Below are positions 215 to 20,517 of a DNA stretch of 21,682 nt, piece after piece (position 1 is the first letter of the stretch; every line of letters begins with the position of its first letter). The DNA lies in the IMG/VR virus record IMGVR_UViG_3300022929_000260, positions 1 through 21,682 of that record; one strand, written 5' to 3'. A program made the position numbers and the translations under genes. The notes under the pieces are model-generated. The model saw only the letters and a list, made by a program, of their open reading frames with translations, had not been told where the DNA came from and did no database searches. The stretch is from a virus.

Positions 215-290
215 GAATGCAATTGATGAACTTCTTGCAGAGATAAAAAAGTTAAGGGAAGAAATAAAGGAAATAAAAAATGAGAACTAA
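186..290 (+). CDS. Small 34-aa coiled-coil protein between the two carbamoyltransferase halves
   Basis: A 34-codon gene starting at ATG 186, with an AAGGAGA ribosome-binding site at 174-180 at good spacing. It overlaps the end of the upstream carbamoyltransferase gene by 29 nt and the start of the downstream half by 11 nt. After MGHPTNSQ the protein is one charged amphipathic helix (AIDELLAEIKKLREEIKEI) with leucine/isoleucine heptad spacing, so a short coiled coil is likely. It has no recognisable family. Its position exactly between the two enzyme halves suggests, by inference only, that it could bridge or dimerise them. It might instead be a relic of a linker shifted into another frame. 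Confidence 0.55.
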   Translation: MGHPTNSQIKNAIDELLAEIKKLREEIKEIKNEN

Positions 291-879
291 TATTGTAAGA
301 GACTTAGACGAGTGTCTAGATTTATTGATTGACCACGAACAGATTGTTGCAATCTTTCAAAACGGTTCTGAGTGGGGGCCTCGTGCATTGGGTAATCGTA
401 GTATACTGTTTGACCCAAGACATCCTGAAGCAAAACAAATCGTCAACTCTATTAAAAGAAGAGAAGACTATCGACCTTTTGCTGGTTCGATAATGTTAGA
501 ACATGCAGATGAGTATTTTGAAATGTTACAACTCAAAGAAAGTCCATGGATGTCCTTTGCAATCAAAGCAAAAGAGAAAGCATACGAAGACATTCCCAGT
601 CTTGTCCATACAGACGGAACATGTAGAATACAAACAGTTACCGAAGAACAGAATCCAAACTATTACAATCTCATCAAAGGTTTCTACGAGAGAACAGGAG
701 TTCCGATTATCTTCAACACCTCTTTCAATCTAGGTGGTGAGGCACTCGTGCAAACTATATACGATGCGATTGAAACATGTCAGAACTCTGAAATCAATCA
801 GTTGTATATTCCTGAAGACCAAGAGTTACACATACCCTATGAATTATTGAGGATTAAAAATCATGATACAAATCAGTAA
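280..879 (+). CDS. Carbamoyltransferase, C-terminal (YrdC-like) domain protein
   Basis: A 199-aa protein matching the complete C-terminal domain of NodU/CmcH/TobZ carbamoyltransferases. Visible family blocks are GSEWGPRALGNRSILFDPR (residues ~29-47), REDYRPFAGSIM (~61-72) and TGVPIIFNTSFNLGGEALV (~138-156). In TobZ this YrdC-like domain forms the carbamoyl-adenylate from carbamoyl phosphate and ATP, which the Kae1-like domain then uses. Here it has its own start codon (ATG 280 with AAGGAA upstream), and the N-terminal domain is a separate protein ending at 214. All key blocks are intact, so this is not a decayed fragment. In other phages carbamoyltransferases have been predicted to act in DNA base hypermodification or on sugars; neither can be chosen here. 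Confidence 0.85.
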   Translation: MRTNIVRDLDECLDLLIDHEQIVAIFQNGSEWGPRALGNRSILFDPRHPEAKQIVNSIKRREDYRPFAGSIMLEHADEYFEMLQLKESPWMSFAIKAKEKAYEDIPSLVHTDGTCRIQTVTEEQNPNYYNLIKGFYERTGVPIIFNTSFNLGGEALVQTIYDAIETCQNSEINQLYIPEDQELHIPYELLRIKNHDTNQ

Positions 880-1330: not shown

Positions 1331-1628
1331 ACTACAACAGTGGTTTGCAAATGTTCTAGTCGAAGGACTAGGACTTGACCGTGATGACCTAGAGTCTAGA
1401 CCTATGGGTTCACAAGGTGAAGATATTATCATGGGTAAACAGTCCCGAGATATTTTCCCTTATAGTGTTGAGTGTAAAAATCAAGAAGCAGTCAATGTAT
1501 GGAAAGCATACGAACAAGCATCAGAGAACTGTAAAGGATACGAACCACTTGTAGTAATTAAACGTAATCGACATAAACCCTTGGTGGTTGTCGATGCAGA
1601 ACATTTTGTAGAGTTGCAAAAGAAATGA
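1296..1628 (+). CDS. PD-(D/E)XK family nuclease (small, resolvase/endonuclease-like)
   Basis: 110 aa. The pattern SRPMGSQGEDIIM followed by FPYSVECKNQ gives Asp43 and Glu59-Cys-Lys61, the metal-binding D...ExK core of the PD-(D/E)XK superfamily. A helix with WKAYEQA follows, which resembles the post-core helix of phage and archaeal resolvase-like or restriction-like nucleases. The N-terminus (KAKGRKLQQWFANVL) is a basic helix typical of these small enzymes. It overlaps the Fe-S carrier-like gene by 35 nt and the ATP-grasp gene by 4 nt. Likely roles are DNA recombination/branch cleavage or host DNA degradation; the sequence does not decide between them. Confidence 0.7.
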   Translation: MKTSSAKAKGRKLQQWFANVLVEGLGLDRDDLESRPMGSQGEDIIMGKQSRDIFPYSVECKNQEAVNVWKAYEQASENCKGYEPLVVIKRNRHKPLVVVDAEHFVELQKK

Positions 1629-3037
1629 AATCATTTAATGAAATAACAGAAGTAATAACAGAAGCAAGAAAACCACAAAAACCAATACGGTTACTTGTTG
1701 TGTCTGCAAAGAATGACCATAAGGGTAAGAAACCTTTTATTACTGCTGGAAGATTGAGAGACGAGTGTAAGAAGAAAGGACTCGACTGTTTTATTGCTCA
1801 CATCGAAGAAGCAATTATTAATAAAGATAAAGACATTACTACTATTTCTAATCATGGTTCAGATAAAGAGTGGGTAATAGACGAAAACGTAATTGCAATT
1901 ATTCGTGGTTCTGCTGCCAGTAAAGATTCATACTTGGATTTAGTTTCTCAATTAGAGAAGATGAATGTTCCATGTGTCAATAACCGTGAGACGGTTATGA
2001 TGTGTGCAGACAAATACTGGAGTTCAATTAAACTTAGAGAAGTCGGGGTGACTCAACCTAGAAGTGCATTGGTGCGTTCTAAGGAGACTCTACAAGAGTC
2101 TATTGAAAGTATTGACCTAGAGTATCCCTTTATACTAAAAACCCTTAGAGGGTCTAAGGGTGTCGGTGTGATGTTCATAGAATCCGAAAGGTCTCTTAAG
2201 GCATTAGTTGCTATGTTATATAAGTTAGACCCCGATGTTGAGTTTATCGTTCAACAGTTCATTGAATCAGATGGTGATGTTCGTGTCCAAGTTCTTGGTG
2301 GTGAGATTATTGGTGCAATGAAACGTATGCAGATTAAGGGAGACTTTCGTTCTAACATATCACAAGGTGCAGAAGGCAAACCTTATAAGTTAAGTGAAGA
2401 AGAAATCAAACTATGTTTAGATGCTCATAAGTCAGTCAACGGAGACTGGACTGCAGTAGATTTTATTTTAGATAAAGATGGAACACCCTATTGTTTAGAA
2501 GTAAACAGTTCACCTGGCACGGATGGATTTGAAGATGCAACAGGTATCAATGTTGCAAAGACTGTTATAGAATATTATGAAGACCGTGCAAACTGGAGAA
2601 GGACTCCAACCCAAATTGGTAAGTTCGAACAGATATACATCGAAGGTGTAGGGAGAACACTTGCAAACTTTGATACAGGTAATAGTGCTAAGTGTTCTTT
2701 ACATGCAGATAAGTTTGAAGTCAAAGGTAAGAAAGTTCATTGGGAAGTGAACGGACATAAATTTGTTCATGACCTAGTTAAGATGATTAAGTTTGAAAGA
2801 GGAGCAGTTAACGCTAAAGTCTTTGAGAGACCTATGATACACTTCAGAGTTTCGTTTAATGGTAATGACTATGAGGATGCAGAGTTTATCTTAGACGATA
2901 GAACTGAGAAGACCACTAAGTGTTTAATGAATCAGAGATTTATGAAGAGAGCAAATGTAATGGTCAACCCAGCAAGGAATTTTGTGGTGACTGATTTTGT
3001 TGAAACAAAAGAATTACACGATATCGAAAAAAAATAA
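1625..3037 (+). CDS. RimK-like ATP-grasp ligase fused to a RimB-like retropepsin-type protease domain
   Basis: 470 aa with two domains. Residues ~120-310 are an ATP-grasp ligase of the RimK/glutathione-synthetase type: PFILKTLRGSKGVGVMF (nucleotide-binding loop, ~168-184), DGDVRVQVLGGEIIGAM, and the Mg2+-binding LEVNSSPG (~291-298). Residues ~330-455 match the RimB / 'ATP-dependent zinc protease' family: FDTGNSAKCSLHA (DTG at 350-352, the aspartic-protease catalytic signature), then CLMNQRFM and MVNPARNFVVT. RimK adds glutamates to the C-terminus of ribosomal protein bS6 in bacteria, and RimB is its partner protease; here both activities appear in one chain. The substrate is an inference. The start overlaps the nuclease gene by 4 nt (ATGA). 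Transcription probably ends near here, because a promoter follows at 3039. Confidence 0.8.
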   Translation: MKSFNEITEVITEARKPQKPIRLLVVSAKNDHKGKKPFITAGRLRDECKKKGLDCFIAHIEEAIINKDKDITTISNHGSDKEWVIDENVIAIIRGSAASKDSYLDLVSQLEKMNVPCVNNRETVMMCADKYWSSIKLREVGVTQPRSALVRSKETLQESIESIDLEYPFILKTLRGSKGVGVMFIESERSLKALVAMLYKLDPDVEFIVQQFIESDGDVRVQVLGGEIIGAMKRMQIKGDFRSNISQGAEGKPYKLSEEEIKLCLDAHKSVNGDWTAVDFILDKDGTPYCLEVNSSPGTDGFEDATGINVAKTVIEYYEDRANWRRTPTQIGKFEQIYIEGVGRTLANFDTGNSAKCSLHADKFEVKGKKVHWEVNGHKFVHDLVKMIKFERGAVNAKVFERPMIHFRVSFNGNDYEDAEFILDDRTEKTTKCLMNQRFMKRANVMVNPARNFVVTDFVETKELHDIEKK

Positions 3038-5258: not shown

Positions 5259-6524
5259 ATGGCAGATGAAACGAAAACCTTCGCAGAAGAACAGGTAGAG
5301 AGAGAACCATCAGAACTGGAACGTCTCACTAAAAGAGTCAACGATTTTACAATCGCAATATCACCAACAAATGCACAAACTGTAACTTCGATTATGGAAG
5401 CAGGTCTTGCTAAAGGTAATTACAAACTTGCAGACTTGGATGCATTAGTATCTCTGAGAGAAGAGACTACTAAAGGATTGATTGAATACAATACAGTATT
5501 ACAGAATGCACAACAACGTATGGGTCAACTCCAAATGGAAGAACAGGAGAGACTCGCAAAAGAACGTGAAGAACGTGAGTCTGCAATGTCAGGTAAAATT
5601 GCAGAAGAAAGAATTGCAAGAAAGAAAGCAGAACAAGAACTTGCAATCGTTCAAGCACAACTCAATGCATTATCAAATGTGCAAGGTAACGTAACCTCTG
5701 CACCAACAACTCCAGTTACAGGTGGGAATGCACCAAGTGTTACTTCAAGTGATACTCCCGACTTACAACCTAAACCTAAGGTGCCTGGAAAAACATCACC
5801 AGCATTTGCAGTTGCACGTGCATTGAATCCAGTCAAAGAAGAAGAAGTTCAAGAAGAAGAAAAACAAATAGAACTCCCTATCTCTGAAGATAAAGAGTTA
5901 GTAAAGAAAGTCGAAGAGACTAAGAAGTCATTCAAAGAATGGGAAGAAGAGACAGTCAACGAAATCGAAGAGAGAGAAGACGTAGTCCTAGAAGTTCCTG
6001 AAGATGCAAAAGGTATCGAAGAGTTCTTTGAAGAAGTAGAGGATGTTGCTGAATCAGTTGAGGAAGAAGTTGAAGAAGAGTTAAAGGTTGCAGAAGAAGA
6101 TACAACAACTACACCTACATTCCCTATTACAGGTGGTAATGCACCTAACGTTAGACAGGCATTATCAAGTGGTGACTCAGTAGAAGCACCAGTCACAAAA
6201 GAAATCAAAACGTATGATAGTGTAGAAGATTTGCAGGCCGCTGTTGATGAGAAGAATCAACAACAAGAAGAAGAGTTCGAAGAAGTCACAATCCCAAATG
6301 AATCAGAACTAAAGGCAATGACTAAGGGTAAAATCTCTGAAGTTGCAGAAGGATTAGGATTCGAAAGTGTCTCTACTACTCAGACTAAAGATGTAATGAT
6401 TGAAAACTTTGTAAAAGATACAGAGTCATTCATCGATGGTCTTAAAGAGAGTGGAGATTTCATTAGTGCTTCAGATGGGAATGACGATGAGGATGAGACT
6501 GTCAGAGACGGTGGATACTTCTAA
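5259..6524 (+). CDS. Large acidic coiled-coil protein with SAP/HeH-like C-terminal motif
   Basis: 421 aa, function unknown. Residues ~60-140 form a charged coiled coil (EERLAKEREERE-like heptads). A Pro/Thr/Gly linker follows, then a strongly acidic Glu-rich stretch (~192-282). The phrase TTPVTGGNAPSV (150-161) recurs as TFPITGGNAPNV (287-298), so the linker motif is duplicated around the acidic block. Residues ~348-385 (LKAMTKGKISEVAEGLGFES) resemble a SAP/HeH/Rho-N helix-extended-helix nucleic-acid-binding motif. It has a structured leader and a possible late promoter, which points to a late or virion-associated product. The next gene starts inside its last 40 bases in another frame. Low-complexity composition makes homology inference unreliable. 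Confidence 0.75.
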   Translation: MADETKTFAEEQVEREPSELERLTKRVNDFTIAISPTNAQTVTSIMEAGLAKGNYKLADLDALVSLREETTKGLIEYNTVLQNAQQRMGQLQMEEQERLAKEREERESAMSGKIAEERIARKKAEQELAIVQAQLNALSNVQGNVTSAPTTPVTGGNAPSVTSSDTPDLQPKPKVPGKTSPAFAVARALNPVKEEEVQEEEKQIELPISEDKELVKKVEETKKSFKEWEEETVNEIEEREDVVLEVPEDAKGIEEFFEEVEDVAESVEEEVEEELKVAEEDTTTTPTFPITGGNAPNVRQALSSGDSVEAPVTKEIKTYDSVEDLQAAVDEKNQQQEEEFEEVTIPNESELKAMTKGKISEVAEGLGFESVSTTQTKDVMIENFVKDTESFIDGLKESGDFISASDGNDDEDETVRDGGYF

Positions 6525-6927
6525 GAACGAAGTAGTAAGACCGTTAGAATTAAATCAAGTAAGTCCAGTTTACATAAAGGCATTTAAGGATATCACTGAA
6601 GATGTCCTTAGATTTAATTTTCCCGAAGAGTATTCTATAAGATTAGGTTTACTACACGATATCGATTGTGTATATTGTGCAAGGTCTGAAGATAAACTTA
6701 TCTTCTCTGCTTTTGAAACAGGACTAGAAGAAGAGATTAAACTAGAACCTTATCTCTATAAACATAAAGGTTTTCCAAAGTCTACTATGTTGAGTGAGTA
6801 TGATGACCAACAATTCTTTTTGATTCCAAAGTATTTTGTTCCCTTTGAAAGTGGTGACAAGATTGTCTATAAATACATCAAAGAGGAGAACGACATAGAA
6901 CGTCATGTCACTTGTGAACGACAATAG
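6487..6927 (+). CDS. Hypothetical protein upstream of radical SAM gene
   Basis: About 146 aa, no recognised family. ATG codons at 6436, 6475, 6481, 6487 and 6493 are in frame. I chose 6487 because a GGA element lies 6 nt upstream, but any of them is possible. All overlap the end of the acidic-protein gene. The body from NEVVRPLELNQVSPVYIKAF onward looks like a compact alpha/beta protein (RFNFPEEYSIRLGLLHDIDCVYC, YDDQQFFLIPKYFVPFESGDKIVYKYI). It overlaps the radical SAM gene by 23 nt, forming the first member of a three-gene overlapping operon, so it might be a partner, substrate or chaperone of that enzyme; that is inference from position only. Confidence 0.65.
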   Translation: MRMRLSETVDTSKNEVVRPLELNQVSPVYIKAFKDITEDVLRFNFPEEYSIRLGLLHDIDCVYCARSEDKLIFSAFETGLEEEIKLEPYLYKHKGFPKSTMLSEYDDQQFFLIPKYFVPFESGDKIVYKYIKEENDIERHVTCERQ

Positions 6928-7843
6928 AAACATTCCAATTACAGCAGTCGACCAATACGACTTCCTAGAACACCGTAGAGAACAGGAAAAGAAACATTGG
7001 TTAAAGAATGATGGTAAACCTCTTGACTCTATTCTTACGGTTGAAGTAAACACTACTGAACTCTGTAATCGAACTTGTGTCTTTTGCCCTAGACATGACC
7101 CTAAAGTATTTCCAAATAGAAACCTACACATGACTGTCAAGGGTGCAAACACGATTGCAGAAGAGTTAGGTGACAATAATTTTCAAGGTAAAATATCTTT
7201 TAGTGGATTTGGTGAGAACTTATTGAATCCTAATTTTCCTGAAATTGTAAAAGAGTTTAGATTTAGTTTACAACAAGCAACACTTGAGTGTAACACTAAC
7301 GGTGATAAGTTAGATGTCGATTATGTAAAAAAATTGTTTCGGAATGGTTTAGATTTGTTGTATGTAAATCTGTATGATGGTATACATCAGATGGAACACT
7401 TCGACACTATGATGGCAGAAGCAAGAATAAGAGAAGACCAATACAAATTCAGAATGCATTGGGGTGACTTTGAGAAACATGGATTAATATTAAACAATAG
7501 GAGTGGAACAATTGATTGGGTCGGAATCGAAGAAACTGATATCAAATCGTTACAGGGTAAACCGTGTCATTACCCTTTCTATAAAATGTTTGTTGATTGG
7601 AATGGTGATGTTTTATTCTGCTCAAACGACTGGGGTCGTGAACATGTAGTAGGTAATCTGATGCAACAGAGTTTACATGACGTTTGGTTCAGTAAACCTA
7701 TGACAAAGATTCGTAAGAAATTAATGAAGGGAGACAGAAGTATGTCTCCGTGTAACAAGTGTAGTGTTGATGGTTCACTGTTTGGAAAACCATCGTTTGA
7801 TATAGTGAGAGAGTATTATGAGAATAGCAATAACAGGAAGTAG
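6905..7843 (+). CDS. Radical SAM enzyme with SPASM-like C-terminal cluster motif
   Basis: 312 aa. The radical SAM cluster motif CNRTCVFC (Cys54, Cys58, Cys61; CX3CX2C) lies after a first beta strand (LTVEVNTTELC), with the conserved GFGENLLNP (~101-109) matching the family's GGEP-like strand. The C-terminal part has NNRSGTIDW (~197-205), Cys221 (KPCHYPF), Cys239 (GDVLFCSNDW) and Cys283/Cys286 (SPCNKC), the arrangement of a SPASM-type auxiliary Fe-S cluster. SPASM enzymes often modify peptides, but sugar and cofactor chemistries also occur. The gene overlaps its neighbours by 23 and 26 nt, forming a cassette with a small unknown protein and an SDR-like protein. The substrate is unknown. Confidence 0.88.
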   Translation: MSLVNDNRNIPITAVDQYDFLEHRREQEKKHWLKNDGKPLDSILTVEVNTTELCNRTCVFCPRHDPKVFPNRNLHMTVKGANTIAEELGDNNFQGKISFSGFGENLLNPNFPEIVKEFRFSLQQATLECNTNGDKLDVDYVKKLFRNGLDLLYVNLYDGIHQMEHFDTMMAEARIREDQYKFRMHWGDFEKHGLILNNRSGTIDWVGIEETDIKSLQGKPCHYPFYKMFVDWNGDVLFCSNDWGREHVVGNLMQQSLHDVWFSKPMTKIRKKLMKGDRSMSPCNKCSVDGSLFGKPSFDIVREYYENSNNRK

Positions 7844-8417
7844 TGGTCTTGCAAAGACAATTAAAGATGTGTTTGAATCAACACCACATGCTGGTAAAAC
7901 ATTCGAGGTCACACCAATTCGATGTGAAGATATAACCTCTAACGGAACCAACTGTTGGATATTTAATGGTCACACTCCGTGTGATGTATTATTGAACTTT
8001 GCACATCAAGACCAAGCAGAGATTCTATCTATTGCACATGAGGCATGGATTAACGAAGGAAGTAAAATGATTATCAACTTCTCTAGTCGTGCAAGTCAAC
8101 CAAACATATCTAAAGGATACAAGTATGCAAGTGAGAAGGCACAACTGAATCACCTTGCAAACAATCTTACTTACAACTCTAAAAAGAAATACAAGATGAC
8201 TACAATCAATTTAGGATTGATTGAACATGACGAACTACCAAGTCTAAAGAACAATGACATTGCACACTTAGTGTATAAATTAGTCACTGCATATCCTTCC
8301 ATCGAGTTTCCTGAGATTACAATGCAACATCGTGCAAATTATATGGAAGTGCAAGATGATAAAGAGACACTAAAAGATTTAGAAAGATATGTCAGATATC
8401 CTAATCAAGAAGTATAA
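7818..8417 (+). CDS. Rossmann-fold NAD(P)-binding protein, short-chain dehydrogenase-like
   Basis: 199 aa. The N-terminal strand-loop MRIAITGSSGLAKTI (GSSGLAK, ~7-13) is the dinucleotide-binding turn of short-chain dehydrogenases. DVLLNFAHQ (~56-64) corresponds to the NNAG-type strand. IINFSSRAS (~85-93) supplies the catalytic serine strand, and YKYASEKAQL holds the YxxxK pair (Tyr103, Lys107). It is shorter than the usual 240-250 aa family members, mainly after the active site. It overlaps the radical SAM gene by 26 nt, so the two are probably made together and may act on one pathway (reduction or oxidation of a radical SAM product). The substrate is not predictable. Confidence 0.75.
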   Translation: MRIAITGSSGLAKTIKDVFESTPHAGKTFEVTPIRCEDITSNGTNCWIFNGHTPCDVLLNFAHQDQAEILSIAHEAWINEGSKMIINFSSRASQPNISKGYKYASEKAQLNHLANNLTYNSKKKYKMTTINLGLIEHDELPSLKNNDIAHLVYKLVTAYPSIEFPEITMQHRANYMEVQDDKETLKDLERYVRYPNQEV

Positions 8418-8425: not shown

Positions 8426-8680
8426 ATGTCAGTAGAATATAACGATTTTGGATTTACCGCTATGGATGCAGAGGAACTTGCCTCTGTAGATACAAAGATA
8501 GTGGAGAAGACTACTTCTGCAACGGAAGTAATCGAAAAGATGGATAACTTTATCCGACCATTACTTGAGAATCTTATGAAAGATTCAGACAAGGAATATA
8601 TCTACTGGCCCAATCGAACAGAGATTCTACAAAAGAAAATCGAAGAATTAAATCTAATTCAAGAAAATATCAAAAACTAG
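8426..8680 (+). CDS. Small conserved T4-like marine phage protein
   Basis: 84 aa. The pattern DFGFTAMDAEEL near the start, a central helix, and YIYWPNRTEILQKKIEELN at the C-terminus recall a small protein found in T4-like cyanophages and related marine phages (recognition from memory, unverified). Its function is not established. It appears helical with a coiled-coil tail and no membrane segment. It is preceded by a perfect T4-type late -10 element five bases before the ATG and has no ribosome-binding site, so near-leaderless late expression is possible. A sigma70-type promoter starts at the base after its stop codon, so it is the last gene of this transcription unit. Confidence 0.7.
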   Translation: MSVEYNDFGFTAMDAEELASVDTKIVEKTTSATEVIEKMDNFIRPLLENLMKDSDKEYIYWPNRTEILQKKIEELNLIQENIKN

Positions 8681-8730: not shown

Positions 8731-8805
8731 GGCGCATTCGTCTAGTGGTTAGGACACATGGTTTTCATCCATGCAACAGGAGTTCGATTCTCCTATGCGC
8801 TGCCA
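8731..8805 (+). tRNA. tRNA-Glu (anticodon UUC)
   Basis: A 75-nt cloverleaf with acceptor stem GGCGCAT/ATGCGCT (G-U at the first pair), D arm GTCT...GGAC, anticodon stem CATGG/CCATG with loop TTTTCAT giving anticodon TTC, a T arm with GTTCGATTC, and encoded CCA at 8803-8805. It would read GAA and GAG. Glu codons, mostly GAA, are very abundant in several genes here, above all the acidic 421-aa protein. It has its own strong promoter just upstream, and a long palindrome follows 9 nt after its end. Confidence 0.95.
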
Positions 8806-8814
8806 ATTTAATAC

Positions 8815-8840
8815 ATATACAAAAATCGATTTTTGTATAT
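8815..8840 (+). terminator. Perfect 26-bp palindrome after tRNA-Glu; possible terminator or operator
   Basis: The 26 bases are an exact inverted repeat centred on ATCGAT, with A5 on the left and T5 on the right. As RNA it would form an AU-rich hairpin with little or no loop, which could end or trim the tRNA transcript. As DNA it could be a dimeric protein site. It lies 18 nt before the ATG at 8859. Confidence 0.45.
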
Positions 8841-8858
8841 ATGTTTCAAGGAAATATT

Positions 8859-9095
8859 ATGGATAACATAGAACGACAATACGTTCAACTAGGAAGAAAG
8901 ATAATCACCAAGTGTGAGAACAATGAGATATTCGCAAAGGACGAAGAGAATACATTACGATTGTGGAATGCCGCAGTCACATGTGCGAATAAACTTATAT
9001 CATATAACACTACTTGGTCTAATTTCAAATCACTAGAAGATTTAACTAAACTAGAAAGGACTGCATTACGTATGTTCTTAGAGGGTAAAGCATGA
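8859..9095 (+). CDS. Hypothetical 78-aa protein
   Basis: 78 aa starting at ATG 8859, with AAGGAA 8 nt upstream. An in-frame ATG further upstream would lie inside the tRNA and is not credible. The protein is helical (NIERQYVQLGRKIITKCENN, EENTLRLWNAAVTCANKLIS) with no membrane segment or motif I know. It overlaps the next gene by 4 nt (ATGA), and both are preceded by the tRNA transcription unit, so they may be made from read-through past the palindrome at 8815-8840. The function is unknown. Confidence 0.65.
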   Translation: MDNIERQYVQLGRKIITKCENNEIFAKDEENTLRLWNAAVTCANKLISYNTTWSNFKSLEDLTKLERTALRMFLEGKA

Positions 9096-9271
9096 GAGTG
9101 TTACTAGAGAGTTATGGTGACATAAGGATATTCTACGATAGACCTTTTGGATATAAGAGATATCATGTCGAATGGGACAATGGACATAAACAATTGTTCA
9201 GTGGTATATGGTATTCGGAAAAGAAAGTTAAAGAGATTGTGGAAAAAGAAATACAATCTCGTGATTTATAA
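9092..9271 (+). CDS. Hypothetical 59-aa protein
   Basis: 59 codons from ATG 9092 to TAA 9269-9271, start overlapping the previous stop (ATGA), so translation is probably coupled. The sequence MRVLLESYGDIRIFYDRPFG begins with beta-strand character. WDNGHKQLFSGIWYSEKKVKE follows, and the chain ends in a charged helix. It looks like a small alpha/beta phage protein, with codon use like its neighbours. No function is recognised. It is easy to miss because of its length. Confidence 0.6.
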   Translation: MRVLLESYGDIRIFYDRPFGYKRYHVEWDNGHKQLFSGIWYSEKKVKEIVEKEIQSRDL

Positions 9272-9288
9272 TAGGGGTGTAAAACTCG

Positions 9289-9362
9289 GGCAGGGGATAA
9301 AGAGTCAAGTATCACAAAATCCACAAGCATTATTACGATTGATGTGTGCGACTCTCCCCGCC
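9289..9362 (+). ncRNA. Stable long-stem RNA element upstream of a 29-aa membrane peptide gene
   Basis: Within the 109-nt gap a strong interrupted stem can be drawn: GGC 9289-9291 with GCC 9360-9362, GGGGA 9293-9297 with TCCCC 9355-9359, GAGTC 9302-9306 with GACTC 9350-9354. That is 13 pairs, with one-base and four-base bulges on the 5' side only. The 43-nt inner part can form a small hairpin (CACA 9322-9325 with TGTG 9343-9346). It ends 10 nt before the AAGGAGA of the next gene and is followed by AAATTTTT. It could be a terminator, a cis-regulator or a small RNA. It does not match the glutamine riboswitch consensus I remember. Confidence 0.5.
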
Positions 9363-9380
9363 AAATTTTTAAGGAGAATT

Positions 9381-9470
9381 ATGGAAAAATTTATAAATGA
9401 TAATCTTATAAAGATTACAATAATAGTCACACTACCATTGTGGGTGGCTTACATTGCACAATATTTTTAA
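9381..9470 (+). CDS. Tiny membrane peptide, 29 aa
   Basis: ATG 9381 preceded by AAGGAGA at ideal spacing; stop at 9468-9470. The peptide is a short polar start (MEKFINDN) followed by one hydrophobic span (LIKITIIVTLPLWVAYIAQYF), so it should be a single-pass inner-membrane peptide. The next gene, also a tiny membrane protein, follows after 10 nt with the same type of ribosome-binding site. Possible roles include lysis control, superinfection exclusion or modulation of a host membrane protein; nothing in the sequence decides. The strong ribosome-binding site and paired arrangement are why I consider it real. Confidence 0.6.
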   Translation: MEKFINDNLIKITIIVTLPLWVAYIAQYF

Positions 9471-9480
9471 GGAGAATAAT

Positions 9481-9591
9481 ATGGAAATAGGAATGATAGG
9501 TGGAATTATAATGACTATCGTAATGCTAGGTATGGCATTCGTGGGTGTTCATATCAATAAACCATTCCCGTGGGAAAAAAAAGATAAGTAA
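9481..9591 (+). CDS. Tiny membrane protein, 36 aa
   Basis: 36 codons from ATG 9481, with AAGGAGAATAAT immediately upstream. Nearly the whole N-terminal two thirds is hydrophobic and rich in Met, Ile and Gly (MIGGIIMTIVMLGMAFVGV), followed by a polar, basic tail ending KPFPWEKKDK. This predicts a single TM helix with a cytoplasmic C-terminus by the positive-inside rule. It is paired with the 29-aa membrane peptide gene 10 nt upstream. A strong promoter begins 5 nt after its stop codon. No family is recognised. Confidence 0.6.
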   Translation: MEIGMIGGIIMTIVMLGMAFVGVHINKPFPWEKKDK

Positions 9592-9595
9592 AAAC

Positions 9596-9625
9596 TTGAC
9601 AATGGGTATCACTTTTTTGTATACT
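9596..9625 (+). promoter_or_regulatory. Sigma70-type promoter, TTGACA-18-TATACT
   Basis: TTGACA 9596-9601, spacer 9602-9619, TATACT 9620-9625, then AATAG. The predicted start (~9632) leaves a 20-nt leader with TAAGGAGA before the ATG at 9653. This is the best-formed member of the repeated promoter family. Confidence 0.85.
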
Positions 9626-9652
9626 AATAGTATAGAAAATTAAGGAGACATT

Positions 9653-10036
9653 ATGAAATTAAGTGAGTTAGTAAACGAAGTAAACCAAGAACAAGACTTA
9701 ATGTTTTTGGTCAATAAACTATGTGATGACTTAACAAATGCTATGCATGAAAGATGGGAACACACTCGTGGTAGAACAACCCATGGTTATTCTGAAGGAA
9801 GAAAATATATACGTATCTATTCTATAGAGGATGGAAGACCTTCTTCTGCATGGGGTTTCATAAACAAAAAAGAATTCAAAAAAGGACTTGCTGGAATCAC
9901 TTTCAAAAGTGGTGACGTTCTCAAGTGTGCTGGTTGGAATACTCCTGCCTTGAATGCACCAAGAGGAAACCTTTTTAATGGATATGATATTAATCCCAAT
10001 TCGATGAGAATATACGGGCCAGATTATTTAAGATAG
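9653..10036 (+). CDS. Hypothetical 127-aa protein
   Basis: 127 aa, first gene after a strong promoter, with TAAGGAGA well placed before the ATG. An N-terminal helix (KLSELVNEVNQEQDLMFLVNKL) is followed by a mixed region: GRKYIRIYSIEDGRPSSAWGFINKKEFKKG, GDVLKCAGWNTPALNAPRGN and NPNSMRIYGPDYL. The second half looks like a small globular beta-rich domain seen in assorted phage proteins of unknown function. I cannot place it in a family. It is followed 9 nt later by another unknown gene with its own AGGAG site, so the two form an early-type operon. Confidence 0.7.
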   Translation: MKLSELVNEVNQEQDLMFLVNKLCDDLTNAMHERWEHTRGRTTHGYSEGRKYIRIYSIEDGRPSSAWGFINKKEFKKGLAGITFKSGDVLKCAGWNTPALNAPRGNLFNGYDINPNSMRIYGPDYLR

Positions 10037-17940: not shown

Positions 17941-18131
17941 GTAATTGGCACGGTGGTAAGGGTTCTAAGAGAAGGAACTCTGATGAAAAACTCTATGCAG
18001 ATAACTGGGAAAAAATCTTTGGTAAGAAAGAACCCGAATTAAAGGTAAGAAAAAAGACACCTAGTCAAGGTGCAACTCAAGTCCACTCGGACAAAACAAA
18101 ATACAATCGTAAGAAACTTAAGAATATTTAA
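17937..18131 (+). CDS. Small basic phage protein with NWHGGKGSKRR start
   Basis: 64 aa, highly basic. MSNWHGGKGSKRRNSDEKLY followed by ADNWEKIFGKK resembles a short conserved phage protein (GGKGS..R...NWDxIF) of unknown function that I recall from many tailed phages. No structure beyond one helix is apparent. It starts 4 nt inside the bS21 gene (ATGA), so the two are coupled and it may share that gene's regulation. Its 3' end overlaps the convergent structural gene on the minus strand by 14 bp. Confidence 0.7.
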   Translation: MSNWHGGKGSKRRNSDEKLYADNWEKIFGKKEPELKVRKKTPSQGATQVHSDKTKYNRKKLKNI

Positions 18132-20517
18132 CGTCTAAAATCCTTGCAGATGCATCGGGATTTTGAAATGATGACCTACCGTAATGATTATGATTGGTTG
18201 TAATATTACTTTTAAAGTTATTCAATGAAGAAACTTCTTTATCTATAATACCATTTTTATTTCTTAAGTACTTATCATTTGAATGTTTCTGTTCTAATTC
18301 ATTATTCTTATTTTCTTGCAACTTTCCACCAATATCACTACCTTGACCATTATCAACTGGAACATTATTTCTATATCTCATTACTGCAGCATCGACTGCT
18401 TTCTGCATTAATTTATCATTTTGATATATGTCAGAAAGAGGATTTTGTTGGTAATGATAAGCAATATTTGCTAATTCGGTTTGAAGTTTTTGTGCATTTT
18501 TATCAAATGTTGCAAGTTCATCTCCAACATTACCACCAAGAGCTGCACCTATAGATGATATTCCTATACCAGCTATCAGTGTAGCACCCTTAGCTATTGC
18601 AGATGGTATAGTTCCAGCTGGAATGAAGCTTGCTGATTTTTCGATACCTTTACCAGTTAAATAGATACCTGTAGATGCACCTACTGTAGAACCAATACCT
18701 CTTCCAACTGAACCTTGTTGATTTTTTGTAAAAACATCGTTTATTAATTTAGTTGTCTCTTCATCAAATGTTGTTTCACCATCCATAGTATCAATATCGA
18801 ATACACTACTGATAAAAGATTGTTGGTCTTTTTGGGCATTTAAGTCTAAGACTCCATCTACAACACCAGTTATTGCAGGAGCTGCTTTTAAAGCTTTATC
18901 TAGTTTTAATGAAAGTGCTAATGCACTTCTTGGAGCTCTTGCAAATGCTTTTTCTATATTAGTAGCATTAAGTTTTGGACTATCTAGTAAATCATCTAAA
19001 TTTTTTGTTCCAGTGATTTTATAGAGTTCTTGTAATAATCTTTTATTTGGTACTTGTTTATTCCTCATATATTTTGGTGGATTTTCTGCAGTTTTTAGTC
19101 CTTTTACTAAGTCCTTATATCCTCCAGTTCTTCTATCAAGTGTTCCATCATCCTTAAATCTTAATTCTTCAACTTTCGCTAAAGCATCAATTTTATTAAA
19201 TTTAGAAGTGGTCTTTTCTTGAGCACCTAAATATGAACCTACATTTGTTGTTGTATTTGCACCAGTTGAATCAGGGTCGACTGCTGGGTCGTCTGTTCCT
19301 CTATTACCCATATCACCAAGGTCTTTAAAACTATCGTTCAATGCAGAAATAACTGCAGTTGCAATAACAGCACCTAAAAGTCCTTTACCACCTTTTTTAG
19401 CACTATCTTTACTAAAAATTTGTTTTAAGGTATAACCACCAATTGTGAGTCCACCTATTTTCTTTAATATGTCTCCTCCAATAAAGTTAAAACCAAACCC
19501 ACCTCCTTCATTATTAGGAACTACTCTATCTTTTGCAAAACCCGCCTGTAATAATCTTTTTATATCACCGACATCATCACCCATCTCTTCAGTTTCTTTT
19601 AGTTCTTTCTTTGCAATTTTAATTGCAGGGTCTATTTCTTGAGATTCACCTGCGATTGAAGGTATGACATCGTCATTTCCACCAAAAGAAAATGCACTTG
19701 CAATCGTTCCCGATAAATCTTTATTACCAAATATCTTACCAACTGCATCTACTTTATCAACTACAGTGTCAAGTGTTCCTAACAAATCAAAACCAGTAAG
19801 TTCTTTTAGTCCTTGACCGAACATAGTGAACTTAGTATCTTGGTCTGCTATCTCTTTTGCTTGTTTGTCTACTGTTTCGTTGAGTTTTTCTAGGTTAGAT
19901 TTAGAAGTATCTAAAAGATTTTTTTGAATTTCAAGTTCTTCTCTCTTTGTATCAAAGATTTGAGTTTCAAATTTGGTAAGTGCTTTCTCTTGTTTCTCTT
20001 TTTCTGTAGTAATCTTTTTAAGATTCTCTTCTTGACCTAAACCTTCTGCACGAATACGGTCTAATTCTAATTTTGCAATCTTATCTCTGAAGTCTTGAAT
20101 TGATTTACGGTTTTTAAACTCTGTATCTGCGATATCTTGTTCAAGTTGCATCACTTTTGATTGATTAAGACTGTAATTATCTTGTGCAAGCTTGAGTTGG
20201 TCGAGAAAACCACTAGTTCCACTGAGTCTATCTAACCCTTCTGATAGTTTTTGATATGATTTAGTGGTTGTATCTGCACTATCGGAAGTTGCTTTTGCAA
20301 TTTTTGTGGTAAATTGTTGTAATTCTTTGGCATTCGCAGCTGCTTTAAAAGAACCTTTGGTAGTTTCCCTCAAATCTGCAATAGTTTTTGCAAGAGGGGT
20401 GTTTACTTCTTGTAAATTACCTATGACATTCTTAAATTTCTTACTGAATTGTTCAGTTGTCTTAAGAATCTCTTGTTCTTTTTGTCTTTGTTGAAGATAT
20501 ATGCTATCGTCTGCCAT
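18118..20517 (-). CDS. Large coiled-coil virion protein, tape-measure or baseplate-hub-associated candidate
   Basis: 799 aa, AAGG upstream of its ATG on the minus strand. Residues ~1-240 are helical/coiled coil (e.g. NRKSIQDFRDKIAKLELDRI, EELEIQKNLL). Two hydrophobic stretches follow, GKGLLGAVIATAVISAL (~375-391) and a Gly/Ala-rich one (AIAKGATLIAGIGISSIGAA, ~655-675). The mixture of coiled coil and TM-like segments is what tail tape-measure proteins look like, and the gene follows gp26, gp51 and a membrane protein. T4 gp29 is 590 aa, and I see no specific signature, so another tail or internal virion protein is possible. It ends in NHNHYGRSSF and converges with the plus-strand operon. Confidence 0.6.
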   Translation of the reverse strand: MADDSIYLQQRQKEQEILKTTEQFSKKFKNVIGNLQEVNTPLAKTIADLRETTKGSFKAAANAKELQQFTTKIAKATSDSADTTTKSYQKLSEGLDRLSGTSGFLDQLKLAQDNYSLNQSKVMQLEQDIADTEFKNRKSIQDFRDKIAKLELDRIRAEGLGQEENLKKITTEKEKQEKALTKFETQIFDTKREELEIQKNLLDTSKSNLEKLNETVDKQAKEIADQDTKFTMFGQGLKELTGFDLLGTLDTVVDKVDAVGKIFGNKDLSGTIASAFSFGGNDDVIPSIAGESQEIDPAIKIAKKELKETEEMGDDVGDIKRLLQAGFAKDRVVPNNEGGGFGFNFIGGDILKKIGGLTIGGYTLKQIFSKDSAKKGGKGLLGAVIATAVISALNDSFKDLGDMGNRGTDDPAVDPDSTGANTTTNVGSYLGAQEKTTSKFNKIDALAKVEELRFKDDGTLDRRTGGYKDLVKGLKTAENPPKYMRNKQVPNKRLLQELYKITGTKNLDDLLDSPKLNATNIEKAFARAPRSALALSLKLDKALKAAPAITGVVDGVLDLNAQKDQQSFISSVFDIDTMDGETTFDEETTKLINDVFTKNQQGSVGRGIGSTVGASTGIYLTGKGIEKSASFIPAGTIPSAIAKGATLIAGIGISSIGAALGGNVGDELATFDKNAQKLQTELANIAYHYQQNPLSDIYQNDKLMQKAVDAAVMRYRNNVPVDNGQGSDIGGKLQENKNNELEQKHSNDKYLRNKNGIIDKEVSSLNNFKSNITTNHNHYGRSSFQNPDASARILDVKYS

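Follow-up and report, generated by a model that had tools for sequence, protein, structure and literature searches.

An overlapping radical SAM-SDR gene pair in T4-like phages: a candidate two-enzyme module for modification of a sugar or cyclitol

The question raised by the locus described here is whether three overlapping genes on a virus genome fragment form one pathway and, if so, which reaction it might carry out. The genes lie in IMG/VR virus record IMGVR_UViG_3300022929_000260, analyzed over its full length of 21,682 bases (the window), and encode a small protein (P1), a radical SAM protein (rSAM), and a protein resembling short-chain dehydrogenases/reductases (SDR). A preliminary description had proposed a three-gene phage cassette making a modified peptide, sugar, or cofactor, with P1 as its possible substrate or carrier. 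Its coordinates and overlaps, 23 nt for P1/rSAM and 26 nt for rSAM/SDR, agree with those found here, but these overlaps are not tighter than elsewhere in the window, as had been stated, because longer ones of 35 nt (863-1330/1296-1628) and 38 nt (5259-6524/6487-6927) are present; the latter joins P1 to the preceding gene and exceeds the overlap of P1 with rSAM.

With rSAM as query, IMG/VR yielded 314 relatives, and the best 80 of them were retrieved; a search with an SDR alignment gave 227, of which the best 80 were kept, yielding 65 new loci, some on contigs already found. SDR was present in 79 of the 80 rSAM-anchored loci; in the 80th (L034), the contig stops shortly past the junction, which is itself present. 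rSAM was present in 61 of the 65 further SDR-anchored loci, and the remaining four (L113, L117, L122, and L132) reach the contig end first, three of them with a gene of an inserted type (described below) upstream. Wherever the contig of a retrieved phage relative is long enough, rSAM and SDR thus occur together, either overlapping or separated by inserted genes, and the co-occurrence anticipated for the two enzymes is borne out. Because only the best rows of both searches were sampled, strict pairing is claimed for the nearer relatives. After duplicates had been removed by comparing the final 60 residues of each of the two proteins, 79 distinct pairs remained, including two on phage contigs binned in metagenome-assembled genomes (MAGs). 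The overlap is 26 nt in 50 of these, 23 nt in 11, and 29 nt in 4 (65/79 in total), and in the other 14, rSAM and SDR are separated by 483-1367 nt carrying other genes. The shared bases encode the tail of rSAM (YYESSNNRK and the like) together with the first strand of SDR and the TG of its dinucleotide motif. With this recurrence, the overlap cannot be put down to chance in a single contig.

Clustering of the neighboring genes revealed two genome backgrounds, A (the window type, with P1 upstream) and B, in which other genes surround the same overlapping pair, including a DruA-like protein directly upstream of rSAM and a DNA polymerase a few genes downstream. (The DruA-like protein of L062, at 8789-9925, matches PF14236 with E 1.4e-8 and phrog_19197 over its full length.) P1 was found in background A only and was not found upstream of the pair in background B. 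For this reason the pair, and not the trio, is taken as the unit, and of the proposed cassette it is the rSAM-SDR part that is stable; P1 is a neighbor of the pair in one lineage. Across 44 background-A loci, the mean identity of rSAM is 0.82. For pairs of loci sharing the genes compared, identities are 0.77 for RNase H and 0.84 for the ssDNA-binding protein versus 0.81 for rSAM (78 pairs), and 0.78 for RusA, 0.78 for the small gene at 8426, 0.60 for SDR, and 0.34 for P1. As judged from these values, rSAM is constrained about as much as the replication core.

rSAM is a member of the radical SAM superfamily, as it carries the CxxxCxxC motif and scores 44.9 bits with PF04055 (cut-off 29.5). The auxiliary domain is likewise recognized (PF13186, 54.4 bits, cut-off 21.5), so that the earlier assignment as a radical SAM/SPASM enzyme with both cluster motifs stands in part; the C-terminal domain has only four cysteines and lacks the seven-cysteine SPASM motif as given in the available text of PMC6231123, and rSAM is therefore of twitch type rather than full SPASM. 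Its four auxiliary cysteines align with those of BtrN, placing it by sequence in the twitch subfamily with one predicted auxiliary cluster. In an alignment of 109 rows (55 phage, 9 bacterial-locus, 42 SAR11, and 3 Campylobacter and Synechococcus phage sequences, one SAR11 sequence appearing twice as L099 and L209), all seven cluster cysteines, Glu-47, and Arg-199 are kept without exception. The only sequence relatives of rSAM found in the PDB are two BtrN entries (phmmer E 3.5e-19, profile E 4.8e-22). Glu-47 and Arg-199 align with BtrN Glu9 and Arg152, where BtrN numbers are chain numbers minus an offset of 20 residues that was itself inferred. In BtrN, Glu9 and Arg152 together with Tyr90 and Phe188 make up the conserved substrate pocket.

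Classical SDRs carry a TGxxxGxG motif and are about 250 residues long. The phage protein departs from this pattern, having an altered motif, a length of 199 residues, and an adh_short score of 13.6 bits, under the cut-off of 26.6. Among 52 unique sequences, Thr-6, Gly-7, Leu-11, and Ala-12 of the motif are invariant, Gly-10 is kept in 47 (TGxxGLA), and just 5 sequences have a glycine at position 13. Asn-60, like the catalytic residues, is invariant (52/52). The AlphaFold model (predicted local distance difference test score, pLDDT, 85.6) had 854 PDB matches at E ≤ 1e-3 in Foldseek (best 8e-8), VIA aligned 161 residues with Z 16.8 and rmsd 2.7, and hhalign gave 98.5% over 109 columns with the SDRs of SAR11. 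The SDR-type Rossmann fold, with its catalytic serine and YxxxK, is that of the SDR superfamily, and the TGSSG and YASEK motifs and the short length had been correctly noted in the preliminary description. As modeled, the phage protein is best classed as compact and divergent, with an SDR fold but outside the classical SDRs, and it is likely to bind an NAD(P) cofactor. The catalytic residues of both partners (the rSAM cysteines, E47, and R199; SDR S90, Y103, and K107) passed the alignment check that had been suggested for them, being invariant throughout.

Table 1. Positions in the window of the three genes, the rSAM/SDR overlap, and the residues discussed in the text
Feature	Position	Strand	Description
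P1	6487..6927	+	146 aa; fast-evolving neighbor, MraZ-like predicted fold, outside conserved unit
rSAM, BtrN-like twitch-type radical SAM protein	6905..7843	+	312 aa; PF04055, PF13186, BtrN homology
SDR-like, compact SDR-fold protein	7818..8417	+	199 aa; predicted model, Foldseek, VIA, invariant catalytic residues
26-nt overlap	7818..7843	+	rSAM C-terminus, SDR first strand, and T6-G7 start of dinucleotide-binding motif
rSAM E47, aligned with BtrN Glu9	7043..7045	+	BtrN alignment; invariant, 109 rows
rSAM cluster motif C54-x3-C58-x2-C61	7064..7087	+	CxxxCxxC; invariant, 109 rows
rSAM R199, aligned with BtrN Arg152	7499..7501	+	BtrN alignment; invariant, 109 rows
rSAM auxiliary-cluster (twitch) cysteines C221, C239, C283, C286	7565..7762	+	invariant, 109 rows
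SDR dinucleotide motif T6-G7-x-x-G10-L11-A12	7833..7853	+	degenerate versus TGxxxGxG
SDR catalytic S90 and Y103-x3-K107	8085..8138	+	invariant in 52/52 unique sequences

The reading we prefer, to which a probability of about 40% is assigned, is that the pair oxidizes a hydroxyl group of a sugar or cyclitol and that SDR then carries out a reduction, the outcome being epimerization or deoxygenation of a host-glycan precursor. In such a scheme, rSAM would cleave SAM at the [4Fe-4S] cluster held by C54/C58/C61, and the resulting 5'-deoxyadenosyl radical would take a hydrogen from a hydroxyl-bearing carbon of the sugar or cyclitol. The auxiliary cluster on C221/C239/C283/C286 would accept the second electron to leave a ketone, as in BtrN; alternatively, water could be lost in the manner of AprD4, removing the hydroxyl. 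SDR would reduce the ketone with NAD(P)H, and the net change would be epimerization or deoxygenation at one carbon. The substrate would most likely be a host surface glycan precursor, so that the envelope of the infected cell would be altered, perhaps excluding rival phages. The observations on which this reading draws are the folds and families of the two proteins, the cluster ligands, the invariance of catalytic residues, the pairing in near relatives, and the glycan context of bacterial relatives, in which an NAD(P) oxidoreductase often adjoins rSAM. Of the three products originally envisaged for the pathway, the evidence favors the sugar, and a peptide made with P1 is unsupported.

That last possibility, in which the pair would mature a peptide akin to ribosomally synthesized and post-translationally modified peptides (RiPPs), with P1 as precursor or carrier, bears directly on P1. 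The accessible part of PMC6231123 includes peptide maturases among twitch-type radical SAM proteins, several such maturases are listed for rSAM by NCBIfam at low score, and the P1 gene runs 23 nt into rSAM. Against this, rSAM scores far under the cut-off of every listed maturase model, and the small precursor peptide expected in a RiPP cassette is not seen: P1 is modeled as a confident, beta-rich, folded domain of 146 residues (pLDDT 86.8), was not found in background B, and aligns at a mean identity of 34-35% with no more than 4 columns invariant. A role for P1 as substrate or carrier was rejected on these grounds, and maturation of a peptide is highly improbable. The conserved start of P1 (ETVDTS) lies in the overlap with the end of the preceding gene. 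Its sequence has no match in phage records, PHROGs, or NCBIfam, nor any over a Pfam cut-off, and only two weak matches among PDB sequences (E 0.11 and 0.71). The proposed structure-based search gave a divided result. VIA, in a second-look alignment, matched the model to MraZ (9sz7_K; Z 10.0, rmsd 2.1, 87 residues aligned) and more weakly to B3 DNA-binding domains, but Foldseek against the PDB and viral models returned nothing at E ≤ 0.001, no listed PDB row having a probability above 0.09 and the best viral row being an uncharacterized protein (E 0.14, probability 0.87). The likeness to MraZ comes from the VIA alignment only and is not confirmed by sequence; a DNA-binding-type domain is possible from the model.

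A scan of genome contigs for relatives of rSAM gave 11 loci. Two of these (L090 and L091), binned in public Sphingobacteriales and Verrucomicrobiales MAGs, are taken as phage contigs because they carry the same phage genes, and one (L099) is a SAR11 single-cell genome. In five of the other eight (L094, L095, L096, L098, and L100), a Gfo/Idh-type oxidoreductase adjoins rSAM; in L092, a Lysobacteraceae MAG, rSAM is followed by a homologous SDR; and neither an SDR nor a Gfo/Idh gene stands beside rSAM in L093, which lies at a contig edge, or in L097. In a tree of rSAM sequences, the phage rows fall into a single clade (100/100) within a group that also holds L092 and L093 (100/98); certain other branches of this tree are long and uncertain. 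At E ≤ 1e-40, an rSAM relative was present in 36 of 297 genomes of the family of G016 (SAR11), and wider surveys at the same threshold gave 4/385 for the class of G013 and 1/369 for the class of G009, all already known, and 1/22 for the order of G013; outside SAR11, the subfamily is rare in the genomes sampled. The rSAMs of SAR11 and other proteobacteria are 31-57% identical to the phage rSAM and have the same invariant residues.

Neighbors were counted for 42 SAR11 rSAM genes in 39 fetched regions, with 424 other genes as comparison. In a first count, 17 of the 42 had a same-strand SDR (15) or Gfo/Idh (2) neighbor versus 72/424 (Fisher p 6e-4), a count biased toward enrichment because the SDR and Gfo profiles were seeded mostly from rSAM neighbors. 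When the count was repeated with seeds not adjoining any rSAM, the figures were 19/42 versus 111/424 (odds ratio 2.3, Fisher p 0.009), three SDRs lying between two rSAM genes being counted for both, and with one rSAM per locus, 16/39. In five cases, the SAR11 SDR gene as called shares 4 nt with the end of rSAM. Neighbors checked with Pfam include a CMP-sugar cytidylyltransferase, a DAHP/NeuB-type synthase, class I/II aminotransferases, a DHQ-synthase-type cyclase, FkbM methyltransferases, and a 2-oxoglutarate (2OG) oxygenase. The bacterial relatives of rSAM, many of them in SAR11, sit in surface-glycan clusters in the loci read, and the phage pair looks borrowed from bacterial surface-sugar pathways.

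The same loci hold evidence for a different substrate, namely a small soluble host metabolite or cofactor, on which the pair would act as an auxiliary metabolic function with no link to envelope or DNA. Beside SAR11 rSAM genes, the DHQ-synthase-type cyclase of L184 and the aminotransferases of L182 and L183 recall aminocyclitol synthesis, and the substrate of BtrN itself is a small cyclitol in free form (PMC9012708). Many of the bacterial-locus neighbors are nonetheless glycan and CMP-sugar genes, and the phage genes inserted between rSAM and SDR look like decoration enzymes; a soluble substrate is judged unlikely. As a separate observation, Campylobacter phages CPt10 (L087) and vB_CjeM_WX1 (L088) carry a BtrN-like gene within a run of several radical SAM genes that also holds an amidinotransferase and an aminotransferase, reminiscent of aminocyclitol synthesis.

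A further candidate substrate is the phage DNA itself, the pair helping to make a hypermodified nucleotide or sugar that would guard it against host nucleases. In both backgrounds, the pair is located within or close to the replication region, and window-type phages also encode a NodU/TobZ-type carbamoyltransferase (18 of 26 contigs), of a family that acts on modified bases in other phages. By contrast, a search of 6 background-B contigs, which are fragments of 44-81 kb, did not reveal this gene, and the bacterial relatives stand in glycan clusters in the loci read. Furthermore, restriction-modification is recorded in only one of >100 SAR11 genomes in the accessible text of PMC7029224; because it is so rare there, the need for DNA protection would be small if the host were SAR11. 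DNA modification is accordingly considered quite unlikely. A link between the pair and the upstream carbamoyltransferase was also considered and dropped, since the 6 background-B contigs keep the pair without it. The carbamoyltransferase looks split (window 280-879; G002 26902-28762; loci L166-L173): in window-type phages, a short gene of its own encodes the C-terminal domain, which in two other contigs, G007 and G1093, is part of a 497-aa frame.

Of the 26 phage contigs with a length of 40 kb or more, 9 also encode a CMP-sugar-type cytidylyltransferase, and tblastn with one such protein matched 7 of 50,697 phage records, including Synechococcus phage S-SCSM2R, in which a distant relative of rSAM is encoded as well; the two frequencies are indicative only because the methods differ and the contigs are related. 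The long contig G002 encodes a HAD phosphatase and a cytidylyltransferase resembling those beside SAR11 rSAM genes.

Several points weigh against action of the pair on a host-glycan precursor. The reaction, its substrate and cofactor, the order in which its steps proceed, and the purpose it would serve are all inferred, and exclusion of superinfecting phages is proposed by analogy. Binding of NAD(P) by SDR is not assured because the glycine motif is degenerate. In rSAM, BtrN Tyr90 and Phe188 align with N130 and S240, so that neither is kept and the substrate is probably unlike that of BtrN. The enrichment of oxidoreductase neighbors in SAR11 is modest (odds ratio 2.3, genes within a region not being independent of one another), and 23 of the 42 SAR11 rSAM genes have no SDR or Gfo/Idh gene as immediate neighbor. 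On the phage side, the surroundings of the pair are those of the replication region or its vicinity, no glycosyltransferases were seen adjoining it, and 17 of the 26 contigs of at least 40 kb, including those of 123.8 and 120.7 kb, show no cytidylyltransferase.

The rSAM/SDR junction is itself a repeated insertion site (L133-L135, L147, L091, L005, L026, L068, L163, and L164). The insert of L147 comprises a kinase, a cytidylyltransferase-like protein (PF01467), and a DUF2061 protein, with look-alikes in L133-L135 and L091, and that of L005 an FkbM-type methyltransferase and a kinase-like gene. A phrog_274 gene is inserted in L068 and L163, the latter also having a 2OG-Fe(II)-oxygenase-like gene, and look-alikes are present in L026 and L164. 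One insert gene found in several loci (cluster 59), of PHROGs family phrog_274, appears by eye to be oxygenase-like of the 2OG-Fe(II) type (HxD...H) and has no Pfam match at E ≤ 0.01; PHROGs names the family 'DNA endonuclease V'. The inserted kinase, cytidylyltransferase-like, FkbM methyltransferase, and DUF2061 genes look like decoration enzymes. A broader proposal, rather unlikely as a whole, is that the pair is a minimal phage module in which a radical oxidation and then a hydride reduction would invert or deoxygenate a single carbon in a sugar or cyclitol of the host surface, with the overlap as a docking point at which decoration genes (kinase/cytidylyltransferase, FkbM methyltransferase, oxygenase-like) would add phage-specific surface modifications, and with rSAM conserved to about the same degree as replication genes in uncultured marine T4-like phages. 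Given its homology to BtrN, its constant SDR partner, and the glycan setting of its bacterial counterparts, the question of what rSAM does comes down to a single reaction that can be tested. If the reading of the pair as a sugar- or cyclitol-modifying unit is correct, phages would be altering the envelopes of abundant ocean bacteria by radical reactions on sugars, and a function would be suggested for a set of radical SAM genes in SAR11 as well.

The genes flanking the cassette in the window (RNase H, helicase loader, ssDNA-binding protein, and exonuclease) are T4-like, and the window is assigned by them to a T4-like phage. The closest relatives of its ssDNA-binding protein are those of Pelagibacter phages Mosig and HTVC008M and Methylophilales phages Melnitz (54-56%). 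A tRNA-Glu (ttc) lies at 8731-8805, just 3' of the cassette. The gene at 863-1330, a few kb from the Fe-S enzyme gene, encodes a possible IscA-type Fe-S carrier (PF01521, E 0.0024, under cut-off). At 1625-3037 is a RimK-like ATP-grasp protein; its C-terminal part (residues 375-455) weakly resembles the ATP-dependent zinc proteases of PF05618 (23.4 bits against a cut-off of 27, E 6e-5), and such a fusion may be of interest. The minus-strand gene at 18118-20517 encodes a 799-aa protein with no PHROGs match and only a weak, under-cut-off Pfam match.

Radical SAM genes have been recorded in marine phages. Pelagimyophages have radical SAM cassettes and lipopolysaccharide genes, for which serotype conversion was proposed (PMC7029224), and a T4-like marine genome has 12 radical SAM genes (PMC5332604). 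The available portions of these two papers make no mention of the pair, an SDR partner, or a likeness to BtrN. Literature searches, with most subscription papers outside their reach, found no paper on the rSAM-SDR pair and no account of its function.

Among characterized systems, rSAM most resembles BtrN, the 2-deoxy-scyllo-inosamine dehydrogenase of butirosin synthesis, which is described in the accessible part of PMC9012708 as oxidizing a cyclitol alcohol to a ketone with removal of two electrons. The homology extends over nearly the whole BtrN chain and covers both the radical SAM domain and the four-cysteine auxiliary-cluster domain, with Glu9/Arg152 corresponding to E47/R199. The phage protein differs in being paired with an overlapping SDR, and no butirosin-type gene set was seen beside the pair. 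A radical SAM enzyme and a reductase working in relay on a sugar are known from apramycin synthesis, where, as far as the available text of PMC5461906 and PMC7941887 goes, the radical SAM diol dehydratase AprD4 and the NADPH reductase AprD3 act sequentially on one sugar carbon; the parallel is functional only, and their substrate is an aminoglycoside precursor. Also close are the rSAM loci of SAR11 and other proteobacteria, which share the invariant residues and in part adjoin an NAD(P) oxidoreductase. The SAR11 SDRs examined are about 240 aa long, score over Pfam SDR cut-offs, and have a short overlap with rSAM or none, whereas the phage SDRs are compact, at about 185-205 aa, and overlap rSAM by 23-29 nt.

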